Both the position numbers and the translations under genes were made by a program. 64,000 nt of DNA from Lachnospiraceae bacterium (lineage in GTDB: Bacteria > Bacillota > Clostridia > Lachnospirales > Lachnospiraceae): NCBI GenBank assembly GCA_024403415.1, contig JAKSRY010000008.1:18486-82485 (forward strand). Direction: 5' to 3'. This document shows, one piece after another, positions 15,815 to 19,334 of this stretch (the stretch's first letter is position 1; each line of letters opens with the position of its first letter). Below the pieces are notes generated by a model. The model saw only the letters and a program-made list of their open reading frames with translations. It did not search any database and was not told where the DNA came from.

Positions 15815-16567
15815 ATGAAAAATGATATTGAATTGAGACATATTTTAGATCTTGCAGAAAAATCCTACAGGAACAATCAATACACTTTTACCGATTTTCT
15901 GAATACAGCACAATTATCGGATTTTTATGATAATCTATCAAATATTCCACCTTGCGGTTTTGCTGTTTTTGGTGGCTATGACGGCGCTGAAAGAGTATTA
16001 ATCAGATTTGGAAAAGAAGAGGATCTTGGATATGTTGAAGATTTTCCTATAACATACGTAAATATCCGTCCCGTTGCTGAAAAATTCGCTGATTCACTGA
16101 ATCATAGAGATGTTTTGGGAACCATAATGAATCTGGGAATGGATAGAGAAAAACTTGGTGACATTCTTATAAAAGATAATAAGATATGGATTATAGCAAC
16201 TAAAACACTGGCTGAACTGATAGTAAGCGAAATAACCCGAATTAAGCACACAACTGTGATATGCCAAATAGAAGATACGATGCCTGAGATGTTAAAAGCC
16301 GAATTTGAAACACTGATAATTCAGGCTTCCAGCGAGAGAATTGATGGTGTTGTTGCAAAAGTATGCAAACTTTCAAGAAATGAAGTCGCCAAAATGTTTG
16401 TCGAGGGCAAAATTGCAATTAACGGACGCAGTATGTCAAATCACAGTTATACTCTGAAGGATAACGATATAATATCGGTCAGAGGATATGGCAAATATCT
16501 TTATCGCGGTGTAGATAGAACAACGAAAAAAGGAAAACTTAATATAGTAGTAGATAAGTACGTCTAA
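15815..16567 (+). CDS. ylmH: S4-domain RNA-binding protein, YlmH family
   Basis: A 250-residue protein with the YlmH layout: an N-terminal domain (FTDFLNTAQLSDFYDNL, then FAVFGGYDGAERVLIRFG), a middle ribosomal-L30-like domain (LNHRDVLGTIMNLGMDREKLGDI) and a C-terminal S4 RNA-binding domain (LSRNEVAKMFVEGKIAINGR, then LKDNDIISVRGYGKYLYRG). In Bacillus subtilis, YlmH binds ribosomes and has been linked to ribosome-associated quality control. It usually lies by divIVA and the sepF cluster; here it follows the rplT terminator and faces the GTPase-nuclease fusion, the two stop codons overlapping by two bases. The ribosome site is weak (GGAA). Assignment to the family is firm. Confidence 0.9.
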   Translation: MKNDIELRHILDLAEKSYRNNQYTFTDFLNTAQLSDFYDNLSNIPPCGFAVFGGYDGAERVLIRFGKEEDLGYVEDFPITYVNIRPVAEKFADSLNHRDVLGTIMNLGMDREKLGDILIKDNKIWIIATKTLAELIVSEITRIKHTTVICQIEDTMPEMLKAEFETLIIQASSERIDGVVAKVCKLSRNEVAKMFVEGKIAINGRSMSNHSYTLKDNDIISVRGYGKYLYRGVDRTTKKGKLNIVVDKYV

Positions 16568-19230
16568 TATTCTTCTTGGACATTATGTCTTTCATTGAAA
16601 TCTTTGAAACATCTTGAAACTTCTGCGTGAAATTCGCGTGAGGATATTATGTGTCCTCCATTACCGAGAACCACAACCTGTTCAAGCCCATCCGAAGTGA
16701 TAACAGTTATATCATATTTTTTAGAATTGTCGTGAGCATATTTTTCGATATACCGGTCTGCGGTCTGAGCTTCTTTTGTATAGACTACGGTAATATTGTT
16801 AAAAGGAATTATTTCTGTGGAGTGTCCCTTGACTTTATAGGCATCATAGACAACCATTATTGGAATATCGACAATTGCCTGATAACTGCAGATAATATCA
16901 TTAAGTCGTCCTGCAGCACCATCCAGAGTGACACCGGCTATATCATTTAATTCATCCCATGCATGTATAAGATTGTACCCATCTATAAGTATATATTTTG
17001 GTTTTGAAGCAGTACCCTTATATTCTGTTTTAGTAGAAGCAGAGAGGTTCTGATTACGTCTGTATTCTCTCATTGAGGCTGAAATTCCTTTGAAAGAACC
17101 TTGCCTGCCTTTTTCGTTTGCATGAGTGGAAGCATGCAGAATGTTATCAATTTCTTCAAGTGAAATTGAAATGTCTGAAGATGATTCACGAAGTCGCCTT
17201 ATGCGATTCGCATTATTTATTTCTGTCTCCTCGAGTTTTGACGATAAGTCAGATATTTCCGAATAATCAGTACCAAGAGCTCCTTCTGAAGAGGCATATG
17301 AAATGTGCATATATTCCGGGACCGCATCCCAGGGAATAACCGTTCCGGCACCATGAGAGCAGAAGACGGACGAGGAAGGATTTCTGACATCAGCATCAGG
17401 ATCATAGTATGAACCAAGAAGAACCTCTTCTTCATTATGACAAAAATCATATCCTGCCAAAGTATAGGACAATTGTCCTAATCCTCTTGTATATGCATTA
17501 ACTTCCTTAATGTAACCATTCATGGTAGAAACGGGAGCTTTTCCACATAAAACAGTAAGATTATTGGAATTATCTGTTTCGGTTATCTCGCAACTTCCTG
17601 ATAACTGATTTATATCGGTCATAGCTCTTCCGACATATTCACTTGGAAGGATAAGTGTATAGTTATAATATGGTTCCAAAAGTCTGCAGGCACCAATTTC
17701 CCGAAGGGTCATAAGGCCCTGGCGGATAGATCTGTAAGTAGCCTGCCTGAAATCACCGCCTTCAGTGTGCTTGTTATGTGCACGACCGGATACAAGAGTA
17801 TATTTAATATCAGTTAATGGAGCACCGGTCAAAACACCTCTGTGTGAACGTTCCATGAGGTGGGTTAAAATCAGTCGCTGCCAGTTTTTTGCAAGCAAAT
17901 CTTCACTAATATTACATTCATATTGGATGCCGGAACCTGTTTCTAATGGTTCCATTTTTATATGTACTTCAGAATAATGTCTTAATGGCTCAAAATGACC
18001 AACGCCTTCAACCTGATGAGAGATTGTCTCTTTATAAACTACTTTGCCATCAGTGAATTTGACAGGAACATTATATTTTTCTCTGAGAGTACGCTGGAGA
18101 ACCTCTGCCTGAATATCACCCATGAGAGAAATCTGTATCTCTTTTGTCTGTTCATTAAAGCTGACATTAAGTGATGGATCTTCATCCTCGAGCTTTTTTA
18201 GTATATCAAGCACAGTGTTGTTATCAAAGTCACGCGTGAAATGAACCGCATAATTAAGTGCCGGAGTGAGAAAAGACGAGAGAGACTTTGAGGCATTTCC
18301 GAAAGTATCCTTAATATGTGTATCATTTAATCCGGCAACTATACATAAGTCACCGGCCTGAACGGAATTAACACTTGCATATTTGTCTCCGGAATATATT
18401 CTTATATCATTTACTTTTTCTTCCCCAATATAATCTTTTATATTTAAAGTCCCAGACATGATTTTAAGGTGGGTAAGCCTTTTGCCCAGCTCATCATATG
18501 AAATCTTATAGGAAAAGGCACCAAAAGGCCCATTGGGGTCATGAGAGATGACAGGAAGATATTTTTGAAGTCCGGAGGTAAATTCAATTATTCCTTCGTT
18601 TTTTAATGCAGATCCAAAGTAAACAGGAAAAAGCTCCCTGGTTTGGATTGAATCGGATATTTTATCAGCAGTAATAAATTCATTTTCAAGAAAATCGTTA
18701 AGAAAGTCTTCTTTTACTGTTGCAATGTTTTCATAAAAATCTTTTTGGTTATCCGCAGTAAAATCAATGGCATTGTCTGAAAAAACAGATTTTATACTTT
18801 TCAAAAGAACATTTTTATCGCAATCAGGCATATCCATCTTGTTAACAAATATAAAAACCGGAATATTATATCTTTTTAATAATGACCAAAGGGTTTTTGT
18901 ATGTGACTGAATTCCTGAACTGCCGCTTATAAGAAGAACAGCTATATCAAGGATAGGAAGGACTCTTTCCATTTCCGTAGAAAAATCTACATGACCCGGA
19001 GTGTCTACCAGTATAATTTCCTTGTCACCCAGATGGAAACGAGCATCTTTAGAATATATTGTTATTCCTCGTTCTTTTTCAAAAGAATCTGTATCAAGAA
19101 AGGTATCTTTTGAATCTACACGACCTATTTTTTTAATGGCACCGCTGTTATATAGAACACTTTCAGATAAAGTTGTTTTGCCGGTATCAACATGGGCAAC
19201 AAAACCCATGACAAGTTTATTATTATGCAT
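16564..19230 (-). CDS. TetM/EF-G-like translational GTPase fused to a YacP/Rae1 (NYN) nuclease domain
   Basis: An 888-residue fusion. Residues 1-650 are a ribosomal-protection-type GTPase: G1 AHVDTGKTT, G2 ERGITI, G3 DTPGH, G4 NKMD, G5 FGSAL, then domains II-V (DPSLNVSFNEQTKEIQIS of domain III and the GAPLTDIKYTLVSGRAH region of domain IV). A linker of about 90 residues (650-743), partly helical and basic, leads to a YacP-type NYN domain at about 744-888 with the acidic residues in YILIDGYNLIHAWDEL, VVYDAYKVKG, TADRYIE and VITSDGLEQ. YacP in Bacillus is Rae1, which cuts mRNA in the ribosomal A site. The ATG two codons inside the first TTG is chosen to match the TetM start. Tetracycline resistance is not implied. 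The pairing of domains is seen directly; the joint function is inferred. Confidence 0.9.
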   Translation of the reverse strand: MHNNKLVMGFVAHVDTGKTTLSESVLYNSGAIKKIGRVDSKDTFLDTDSFEKERGITIYSKDARFHLGDKEIILVDTPGHVDFSTEMERVLPILDIAVLLISGSSGIQSHTKTLWSLLKRYNIPVFIFVNKMDMPDCDKNVLLKSIKSVFSDNAIDFTADNQKDFYENIATVKEDFLNDFLENEFITADKISDSIQTRELFPVYFGSALKNEGIIEFTSGLQKYLPVISHDPNGPFGAFSYKISYDELGKRLTHLKIMSGTLNIKDYIGEEKVNDIRIYSGDKYASVNSVQAGDLCIVAGLNDTHIKDTFGNASKSLSSFLTPALNYAVHFTRDFDNNTVLDILKKLEDEDPSLNVSFNEQTKEIQISLMGDIQAEVLQRTLREKYNVPVKFTDGKVVYKETISHQVEGVGHFEPLRHYSEVHIKMEPLETGSGIQYECNISEDLLAKNWQRLILTHLMERSHRGVLTGAPLTDIKYTLVSGRAHNKHTEGGDFRQATYRSIRQGLMTLREIGACRLLEPYYNYTLILPSEYVGRAMTDINQLSGSCEITETDNSNNLTVLCGKAPVSTMNGYIKEVNAYTRGLGQLSYTLAGYDFCHNEEEVLLGSYYDPDADVRNPSSSVFCSHGAGTVIPWDAVPEYMHISYASSEGALGTDYSEISDLSSKLEETEINNANRIRRLRESSSDISISLEEIDNILHASTHANEKGRQGSFKGISASMREYRRNQNLSASTKTEYKGTASKPKYILIDGYNLIHAWDELNDIAGVTLDGAAGRLNDIICSYQAIVDIPIMVVYDAYKVKGHSTEIIPFNNITVVYTKEAQTADRYIEKYAHDNSKKYDITVITSDGLEQVVVLGNGGHIISSREFHAEVSRCFKDFNERHNVQEEY

Positions 19231-19305
19231 AAACAATTCTTTCTAATAATTAAAAATCAGATTAACAATTTTTATATTCTGCATTGATTTTGTATTGCTT
19301 TCTTA

Positions 19306-19334
19306 AGTATAACAAAATGGCAGACAGCTATCAA
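19306..19334 (-). promoter_or_regulatory. Sigma-A type promoter for the GTPase-Rae1 fusion gene
   Basis: On the minus strand TTGATA (19334-19329), a 17-base spacer and TATACT (19311-19306). The expected start near 19299 gives a leader of about 70 bases. Confidence 0.7.

Follow-up and report, generated by a model that had tools for sequence, protein, structure and literature searches.

A fused Tet-fold GTPase and YacP-type nuclease of Lachnospiraceae that seems to have displaced the stand-alone Rae1/YacP

EF-G and the tetracycline resistance protein TetM reach into the decoding centre of the ribosome with an arm, domain IV, and few nucleases besides Rae1 (YacP) are, to our knowledge, known to cut mRNA inside the ribosome. 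Published accounts credit Rae1 of Bacillus subtilis with the ability to attack mRNA in the A site (PMC12320835; PMC6613710). Such proteins have been met in one polypeptide before: Atkinson 2015 (BMC Genomics 16:78, PMC4342817) reported that Tet proteins of ten clostridial species had acquired a YacP-like NYN domain, and proposed a possible resistance mechanism through RNase activity. Here we describe a gene in a 64,000-nucleotide stretch of a Lachnospiraceae bacterium genome (GenBank assembly GCA_024403415.1, contig JAKSRY010000008.1, positions 18,486 to 82,485), referred to below as the window, that encodes a translational GTPase followed in frame by a YacP-type NYN nuclease domain. As far as the accessible text of Atkinson 2015 goes, those proteins very probably have the same architecture; the fusion is not new, and that paper is the earliest printed description that we found. 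New here are the position of the fusion as sole YacP of the window genome, decayed yacP remnants in other fusion-bearing genomes, an unfused form of the GTPase in company with YacP, a domain IV tip unlike that of TetM and EF-G together with a score under the tetracycline-protection cut-off, and a shortening of the nuclease domain. Judged from genome comparisons, the fusion seems to have displaced the stand-alone Rae1/YacP. We consider it slightly on the probable side that the fused protein is this genome's Rae1/YacP ribonuclease, permanently joined to a Rae1-associated translational GTPase that brings it to the A site.

The initial annotation of this stretch, made from its letters alone, had described one continuous frame with five G motifs that joins an EF-G/Tet-fold GTPase to a YacP-type NYN domain. 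The frame is indeed unbroken (16564-19236), giving 890 amino acids (aa) when read from a TTG six bases 5' of the ATG at 19230, and residues are numbered here on that version. The motifs AHVDTGKT, RGIT, DTPGH, NKMD and GSAL can be read in the translation. Pfam matches exceed their cut-offs for GTP_EFTU (PF00009), EFG_III, EFG_IV (PF03764), EFG_C (PF00679) and NYN_YacP (PF05991), which include all four families proposed as a check, while the EF-G_D2 match falls slightly under its cut-off (Table 1). With motifs G1 to G5 and domains I to V, the first part belongs to the translational GTPases of the EF2/EF-G family. The G-motif consensus is held in the 90 fused frames compared, and it hardly varies among 62 aligned fusions (the window protein and 61 others picked from the 80 best named loci). 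An AlphaFold model built with this alignment has a mean predicted local distance difference test (pLDDT) score of 85.7, with the GTPase to about residue 645 and the NYN domain at 746-885 well folded; its predicted template modelling score is 0.61, and the relative orientation of the domains was left unused. A linker was also anticipated correctly, but not its length of about 90 residues, for it comprises about 100 low-confidence residues (646-745) that follow a folded C-terminal hairpin.

The nuclease domain is equally well marked. It scores 138 bits on NYN_YacP against a curated cut-off of 24.6, and a search of solved structures finds 5mq8 and 5mq9, the YacP (Rae1) of B. subtilis, with E=1.4e-16. 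Residues DGYN752-755, D798, T825-A-D827 and S848-D849 do not vary across the 62 aligned fusions. Four of these, D752, D798, D827 and D849, which we take to be the catalytic acids of a PIN-like active site, align with the acids of 5mq9 and are conserved in stand-alone copies too. Both the conserved acidic residues and the family membership that had been proposed for the C-terminal part are thus confirmed.

Another possibility raised at the outset was a frame break or sequencing error by which two separate genes had been merged. A scan of named genomes gave at least 599 matching stretches, 597 of them encoding relatives; the best 80 of these were kept, and all 80 hold GTPase and NYN profile matches in one frame of more than 800 aa. 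In a sample of the window's family, 120 of 130 genomes have PF05991. A frame of at least 500 aa surrounds the NYN match in 112 of the 120, and in 109 of those the frame is at least 800 aa; the other eight are made up of six stand-alone copies, one genome (G408) with the parts as overlapping frames, and one (G440) in which the match is cut by a contig end. These counts refute an assembly or frameshift artefact, the chance of which we regard as negligible. Nothing in the window speaks for it, although G408 and G148 show that frames can be broken near the linker or domain V. In these two loci (L142 and L188, respectively) the GTPase and NYN parts stand in separate or overlapping frames, through either natural fission or assembly error.

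The fusion is a common architecture in many gut Lachnospiraceae. In a sample of the phylum, 110 of 199 genomes have PF05991, 13 of them fused by frame length. According to the record names among the matches listed, the carriers are Lachnospiraceae above all, with Clostridium punense, Fusibacter, Anaerovorax and Desulfosporosinus also present. One fusion (L107) comes from a bin titled Thermoflexaceae (Chloroflexota) and groups with Lachnospiraceae rows; the bin is probably mis-titled. Four fused proteins are strongly diverged: L146 (G280), L145 (G312), L199 (G407) and L147 (G461). L146 has lost the domain IV tip motifs, and its GTPase reaches only 328 bits on the subfamily profile described below; L199, which lies outside the 62-row alignment, lacks the DGYN motif.

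In the window genome (87% complete) the only PF05991 match is the one in the fusion, which extends to the genome the earlier remark that the window holds no stand-alone yacP. A sample of the order, chosen by neither GTPase nor YacP, contains 392 genomes, 338 of which have PF05991, with one match each except in nine genomes. Among these nine, a fusion and a full stand-alone copy occur together only in G171 and G197; in the other seven the second match comes from a relic, a fragment or a split frame. The stand-alone yacP of G171 and G197 is flanked by rlmB and sigH, and the order of genes matches that in the congeneric G050 (gene names by eye). G050 (1% contaminated) carries the fusion and a decayed yacP in that interval, where tblastn with the G197 protein recovers residues 4-114 and 140-173, separated by a 30-residue gap and interrupted by internal stops. 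The same interval in G021, which also carries the fusion, retains only about 27 N-terminal yacP residues. Such remnants are expected if the fusion made the stand-alone nuclease redundant. The survey of fused against separate forms that had been suggested therefore finds fused genomes rarely with another YacP, and decayed copies in two of them.

The setting of the stand-alone gene also bears on a different explanation, a ribosome assembly or rRNA processing factor whose GTPase would bind the 30S subunit or 70S ribosome and whose NYN domain would trim rRNA. In five of six family genomes (the exception is G358) the stand-alone yacP directly adjoins a gene like rlmB, an rRNA methylase gene, again with names assigned by eye, and rRNA processing is the older proposal for NYN domains, as cited in PMC4342817. 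Against it stand the accounts of B. subtilis Rae1 as an endonuclease that acts on mRNA in the A site (PMC12320835; PMC6613710) and the absence of the domain from 10 of the 130 family genomes. We regard this role as improbable, but it is one of two rivals that are still alive.

The fused nuclease domains differ from stand-alone ones at their C-termini. After duplicate or cut rows were dropped, this part was found shortened in 32 of 87 fused domains, including that of the window protein, which has 139 residues from DGYN to its end where full-length stand-alone copies were defined by at least 162. Of 37 stand-alone YacP rows, 35 have at least 162 residues and none of these 35 intact rows is shortened; the remaining two both show the same broken stretch in G159. 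The shortening is as expected if ribosome docking had passed to the GTPase.

The shortening also bears on the second surviving rival, in which both parts act on the ribosome independently and their fusion merely fixes expression or local concentration, with no GTP-coupled cutting. Compatible with it are the existence of unfused pairs as separate genes in other genomes, the two separate overlapping frames of G408, and a linker that is long and variable (84-228 residues from the C-terminal motif to DGYN in 86 fusions). The 32 shortened domains, which suggest dependence on the GTPase, and the retention of the fusion as a single long frame by 109 to 112 of the 120 family genomes count against it, and we hold such a co-expression fusion to be unlikely, though less so than an rRNA-processing role.

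The GTPase part had been called ribosomal-protection-type, a label that neither model scores nor the domain IV tip uphold. Its nearest solved relatives by sequence in the PDB are TetM and TetO, and its best NCBIfam model is tet_protect (NF012153), but the score of 413.7 bits fails the curated cut-off of 775. The TetM/W model gives 301.4 bits against a cut-off of 1100, and the EF-G model TIGR00484 gives 286.1 bits and likewise fails its cut-off of 659.4. The two domain IV tip loops of the fused GTPase are GVGHFEPLRHYAEV and AHxKHTEGGDFR. The latter, loop III, is exact in 79 of the 90 fused frames, present as a close GGDF variant in 10 more, and lost in L146. The TetM-type loop III YYSPVSTPADFR is absent from the window protein, which has AHNKHTEGGDFR instead. 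In TetM, drug displacement has been suggested to fall to loop III, and a helix at the C-terminus is important for function (PMC4750697). Because the tet_protect score lies under its cut-off and the tip loops are its own, the fused GTPase is best called, on these sequence criteria, an uncharacterised Tet-fold subfamily and not a resistance protein. The window genome encodes only two EFG_IV proteins, the fusion and a 714-aa frame with a strong EFG_IV match that is presumably EF-G.

When the model was aligned by structure (VIA-align), the highest Z belonged to EF-G (41.3), and TetM reached 32.4. The TetM alignment runs to residue 638, through the C-terminal extension, and the EF-G rows stop by residue 615. 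This extension, with its SVFCSHGAG motif, is common to the unfused GTPases of the subfamily and aligns on the C-terminal extension of TetM.

The suggestion of Atkinson 2015, that such proteins protect ribosomes from tetracycline and add an RNase step, is quite improbable on these results, more so than either rival above. The nearest PDB and NCBIfam matches do point that way, and two plasmid-borne relatives, one fused (L222) and one unfused (L220), are annotated as TetM/TetW/TetO/TetS family resistance proteins, while other records read 'translation factor GTPase family protein'. The shortfall against the curated cut-off is large, however, and the TetM loop III is replaced by the subfamily's own GGDF-type loop in 89 of 90 fused frames (L146 has neither). 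Moreover, the gene is widespread in the family as a single copy, no neighbour of it is conserved, and it seems to displace a housekeeping yacP.

Unfused members of the subfamily were found with a profile (A2) built from 17 GTPase parts of fused or split loci. They are mostly 641-687 aa long (e.g. L156-L167, L180, L181, L185, L187) and have no NYN domain. Seventeen unfused frames were compared, 15 from group C of the frame comparison (19 rows, including four truncated views of fused genes, L112, L113, L114 and L116) and two from group B. Sixteen of the 17 have HxKHT[ES]GGDFR, and only L170 is without an S[VI]FC-type C-terminal extension; the unfused GTPase of G014 lacks the C-terminal S[VI]FC-type motif. 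A looser unfused member, L220, shares loop I and SVFC with the subfamily but has ASNVHTVGGDFR at loop III.

The unfused GTPase keeps close company with YacP. We hand-picked 40 genomes of the order with a GTPase score under about 800 bits or a visibly unfused GTPase. Thirty-four of them have an unfused GTPase (including a contig-edge piece in G296 and a gene with an internal stop in G351), and 32 of these 34 also have a stand-alone YacP; the six not counted as unfused are four fusions, G159 at a contig edge and G164 with a broken frame. In the order sample, PF05991 was found in 188 of 192 genomes with the GTPase (E<=1e-150) against 150 of 200 without it, counts that are uncorrected for kinship. 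Two of the four carriers without PF05991 end at a contig edge, and the other two are genomes 77% and 61% complete. On these counts the GTPase very rarely occurs without YacP, and YacP often occurs without the GTPase. As a separate observation, the unfused GTPase gene of G351 (L169/L198) is interrupted by an internal TAG and its frame is short, with an intact stand-alone yacP in the same genome; it may be a partner gene in decay.

Trees of the two parts were computed after removal of duplicate views and, for the GTPase, of the truncated L168 and L169/L198; in both, named fused rows were thinned to every third. In the GTPase tree the 38 fused rows need one label change, and together with two unfused rows they form a 40-row branch with a Shimodaira-Hasegawa-like approximate likelihood ratio test (SH-aLRT) support of 100. 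Most unfused forms fall outside the fused side. The NYN tree needs four label changes and adds little; among its 'alone' rows, L142 is really a split gene and L143 lies at a contig edge, and the branch of L146 is very long.

Taken together, comparison of the sequences shows that both parts are intact, that the fused gene is usually the sole YacP and that two genomes with the fusion hold the stand-alone gene in decayed form; mRNA cleavage and its coupling to GTP we infer. The strongest new evidence is evolutionary, namely the yacP remnants, the near-strict company of GTPase and YacP, and the shortening of the fused nuclease. A plausible mechanism would begin with the GTPase part docking on the ribosome at the usual translational GTPase site, whereupon domain IV, with its own His/Lys-rich tip, would enter the decoding centre. 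The C-terminal extension of TetM reportedly contacts the decoding centre, and if that of the fusion ends nearby as well, the flexible linker would keep the nuclease beside the A site. GTP would then be hydrolysed and domain IV withdrawn, after which the NYN domain would occupy the A site and cleave the codon it finds in place, acting on paused ribosomes or on certain messages; ordinary non-stop rescue systems would clear the ribosome after the cut. The steps are placed in sequence because domain IV and Rae1 would compete for the A site. More tentatively, and with rather less than even confidence, we suggest a self-contained GTP-driven mRNA-cutting factor whose tip (GHFEPLRHY / AHxKHTEGGDF) reads an empty or blocked A site and whose hydrolysis step hands the site to the tethered Rae1. 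If true, a translational GTPase would decide which ribosome loses its message, and the unfused pair of other Clostridia would be the two-component form.

Several points weigh against the reading of the fusion as a GTPase-delivered Rae1. The hand-over step is a guess, given that Rae1 and domain IV compete for one place. The window NYN domain is without about 25 C-terminal profile positions, and R166P, which lies in this C-terminal region of Rae1, is listed among the loss-of-function rae1 mutations of B. subtilis (PMC6613710), so that the shortened nucleases may not be full equivalents of Rae1. The match of the C-terminal extension is not limited to TetM, since EF-2 and U5 snRNP rows reach residues 621-642, most at a root-mean-square deviation of about 10 A. 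G171 and G197 keep both the fusion and a stand-alone YacP, although both genomes are 5-6% contaminated. Two genomes (those 77% and 61% complete) have an unfused GTPase and no YacP that we could find, and conversely G394 and G422 have a stand-alone YacP and no subfamily GTPase, so that YacP does not need this GTPase. Ten of the 130 family genomes, and 13 family genomes of the order sample, are without both PF05991 and the subfamily GTPase, which implies that the fused function is dispensable. The co-occurrence counts ignore kinship and the 40 genomes were hand-picked, and the fused group by itself is weakly supported in the GTPase tree (SH-aLRT 24). Finally, no experiment on the fusion was found in the literature searched, a coverage that leaves out the original Rae1 work and Condon 2018 on Rae1 distribution.

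The surroundings of the gene give no conserved operon partner, as no neighbour family holds a fixed position among 87 contexts; the largest neighbour cluster, ABC transporter-like by eye, covers 26 loci at scattered positions. In the window a YlmH-type gene, located downstream of infC and rplT, converges on the fused gene (Table 1). In B. subtilis YlmH has a role in ribosome quality control (PMC11317155), but with no recurring neighbour among the 87 contexts the arrangement is probably local. Promoter-like sites around the fused gene numbered 16, against 12.7 (standard deviation 3.3) in shuffled sequences, and so provide no evidence of function.

An origin in phages or plasmids was also considered and rejected. 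Plasmid records with a match number 901, only one of which covers at least 80% of the query, a fused member on a 252-kb Agathobacter rectalis plasmid (L222, NZ_CP143948.1). The unfused L220 is on Ligilactobacillus salivarius pHN3 (NC_017499.1), beside an rpsN gene, and no literature was found on a tetracycline phenotype for it. Two records titled 'Bacteriophage sp.' carry the fusion (L221, MT835514.1; and MT835563.1). The genes flanking L221 are, by eye, rsmH, feoB, gltX and glpK, as in a bacterial chromosome, and the record is probably mislabelled as phage. None of the PADLOC families matched in a search for an anti-phage defence system, and absence from that library proves nothing.

Table 1. 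Coordinates of the fused gene, its parts and nearby features in the window (residues on the 890-aa version)
Feature	Residues	Position	Strand	Basis
Fused GTPase-NYN gene, from ATG	888 aa	16564..19230	-	frame and Pfam
Domain I, translational GTPase G domain	9-228	18553..19212	-	PF00009 (GTP_EFTU) 162.7 bits; G1-G5
Domain II	240-312	18301..18519	-	PF22042 (EF-G_D2) 23.2 bits, cut-off 27; folded in AlphaFold model
Domain III	324-394	18055..18267	-	PF14492 (EFG_III) 50.4 bits
Domain IV	397-509	17710..18048	-	PF03764 (EFG_IV) 62.5 bits; EF-G and TetM on the ribosome matched by fold
Domain IV tip loop I, GVGHFEPLRHYSEV, subfamily signature	411-424	17965..18006	-	alignment of fusions
Domain IV tip loop III, AHNKHTEGGDFR, subfamily signature	486-497	17746..17781	-	fused-frame comparison
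Domain V	518-602	17431..17685	-	PF00679 (EFG_C) 66.8 bits
C-terminal extension, SVFCSHGAG hairpin and short helix	616-645	17302..17391	-	frame comparison, model
Flexible linker	646-745	17002..17301	-	AlphaFold pLDDT block means 35-58 over 651-740
NYN_YacP (Rae1-type) nuclease domain	746-885	16582..17001	-	PF05991 138 bits, profile positions 1-139 of 166
Promoter-like site, TG before -10, about 75 bases upstream of ATG		19306..19334	-	consensus match only
YlmH-type gene, convergent, overlaps fused gene 3' end by 4 bases		15815-16567	+	PF17774 62 bits

In the fusion, Rae1 is joined to a type of GTPase that itself binds at this ribosomal site, and the pair has been retained in a family common among gut bacteria; the question of how Rae1 chooses its ribosomes becomes testable with a single protein. 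Counts of resistance genes may be inflated by records that label relatives as tetracycline resistance, although the window protein fails the cut-off and is without the TetM tip loop.

Compared with described systems, the reading of Atkinson 2015 predates the characterisation of Rae1, and the distribution, the displacement of yacP, the unfused partner and the loop comparison were not seen in the accessible text of that paper (PMC4342817). TetM and TetO (PDB 3j9y, 4v6v) have the five-domain translational GTPase fold and the C-terminal extension in common with the fused protein, which differs in falling under the tet_protect cut-off and in the tip loops GHFEPLRHYAEV and AHxKHTEGGDFR that replace those of TetM. 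EF-G has the same order of domains I-V, but the fused GTPase falls under the EF-G cut-off, has a different domain IV tip (at loop III, SYHDVDSSEMAF in EF-G and AHNKHTEGGDFR in the fused protein) and possesses the C-terminal extension. The unfused Tet-like GTPases share both the domain IV tip loops and the C-terminal extension with the fusion and differ in having no NYN domain. Rae1/YacP of B. subtilis (5mq8, 5mq9) has a homologous NYN domain whose acidic residues align with those of the fused protein, together with a C-terminal part that the window copy lacks. In B. subtilis it is encoded by a separate gene co-transcribed with yacO/rlmB (PMC6613710), whereas in the window the nuclease is fused to a GTPase.

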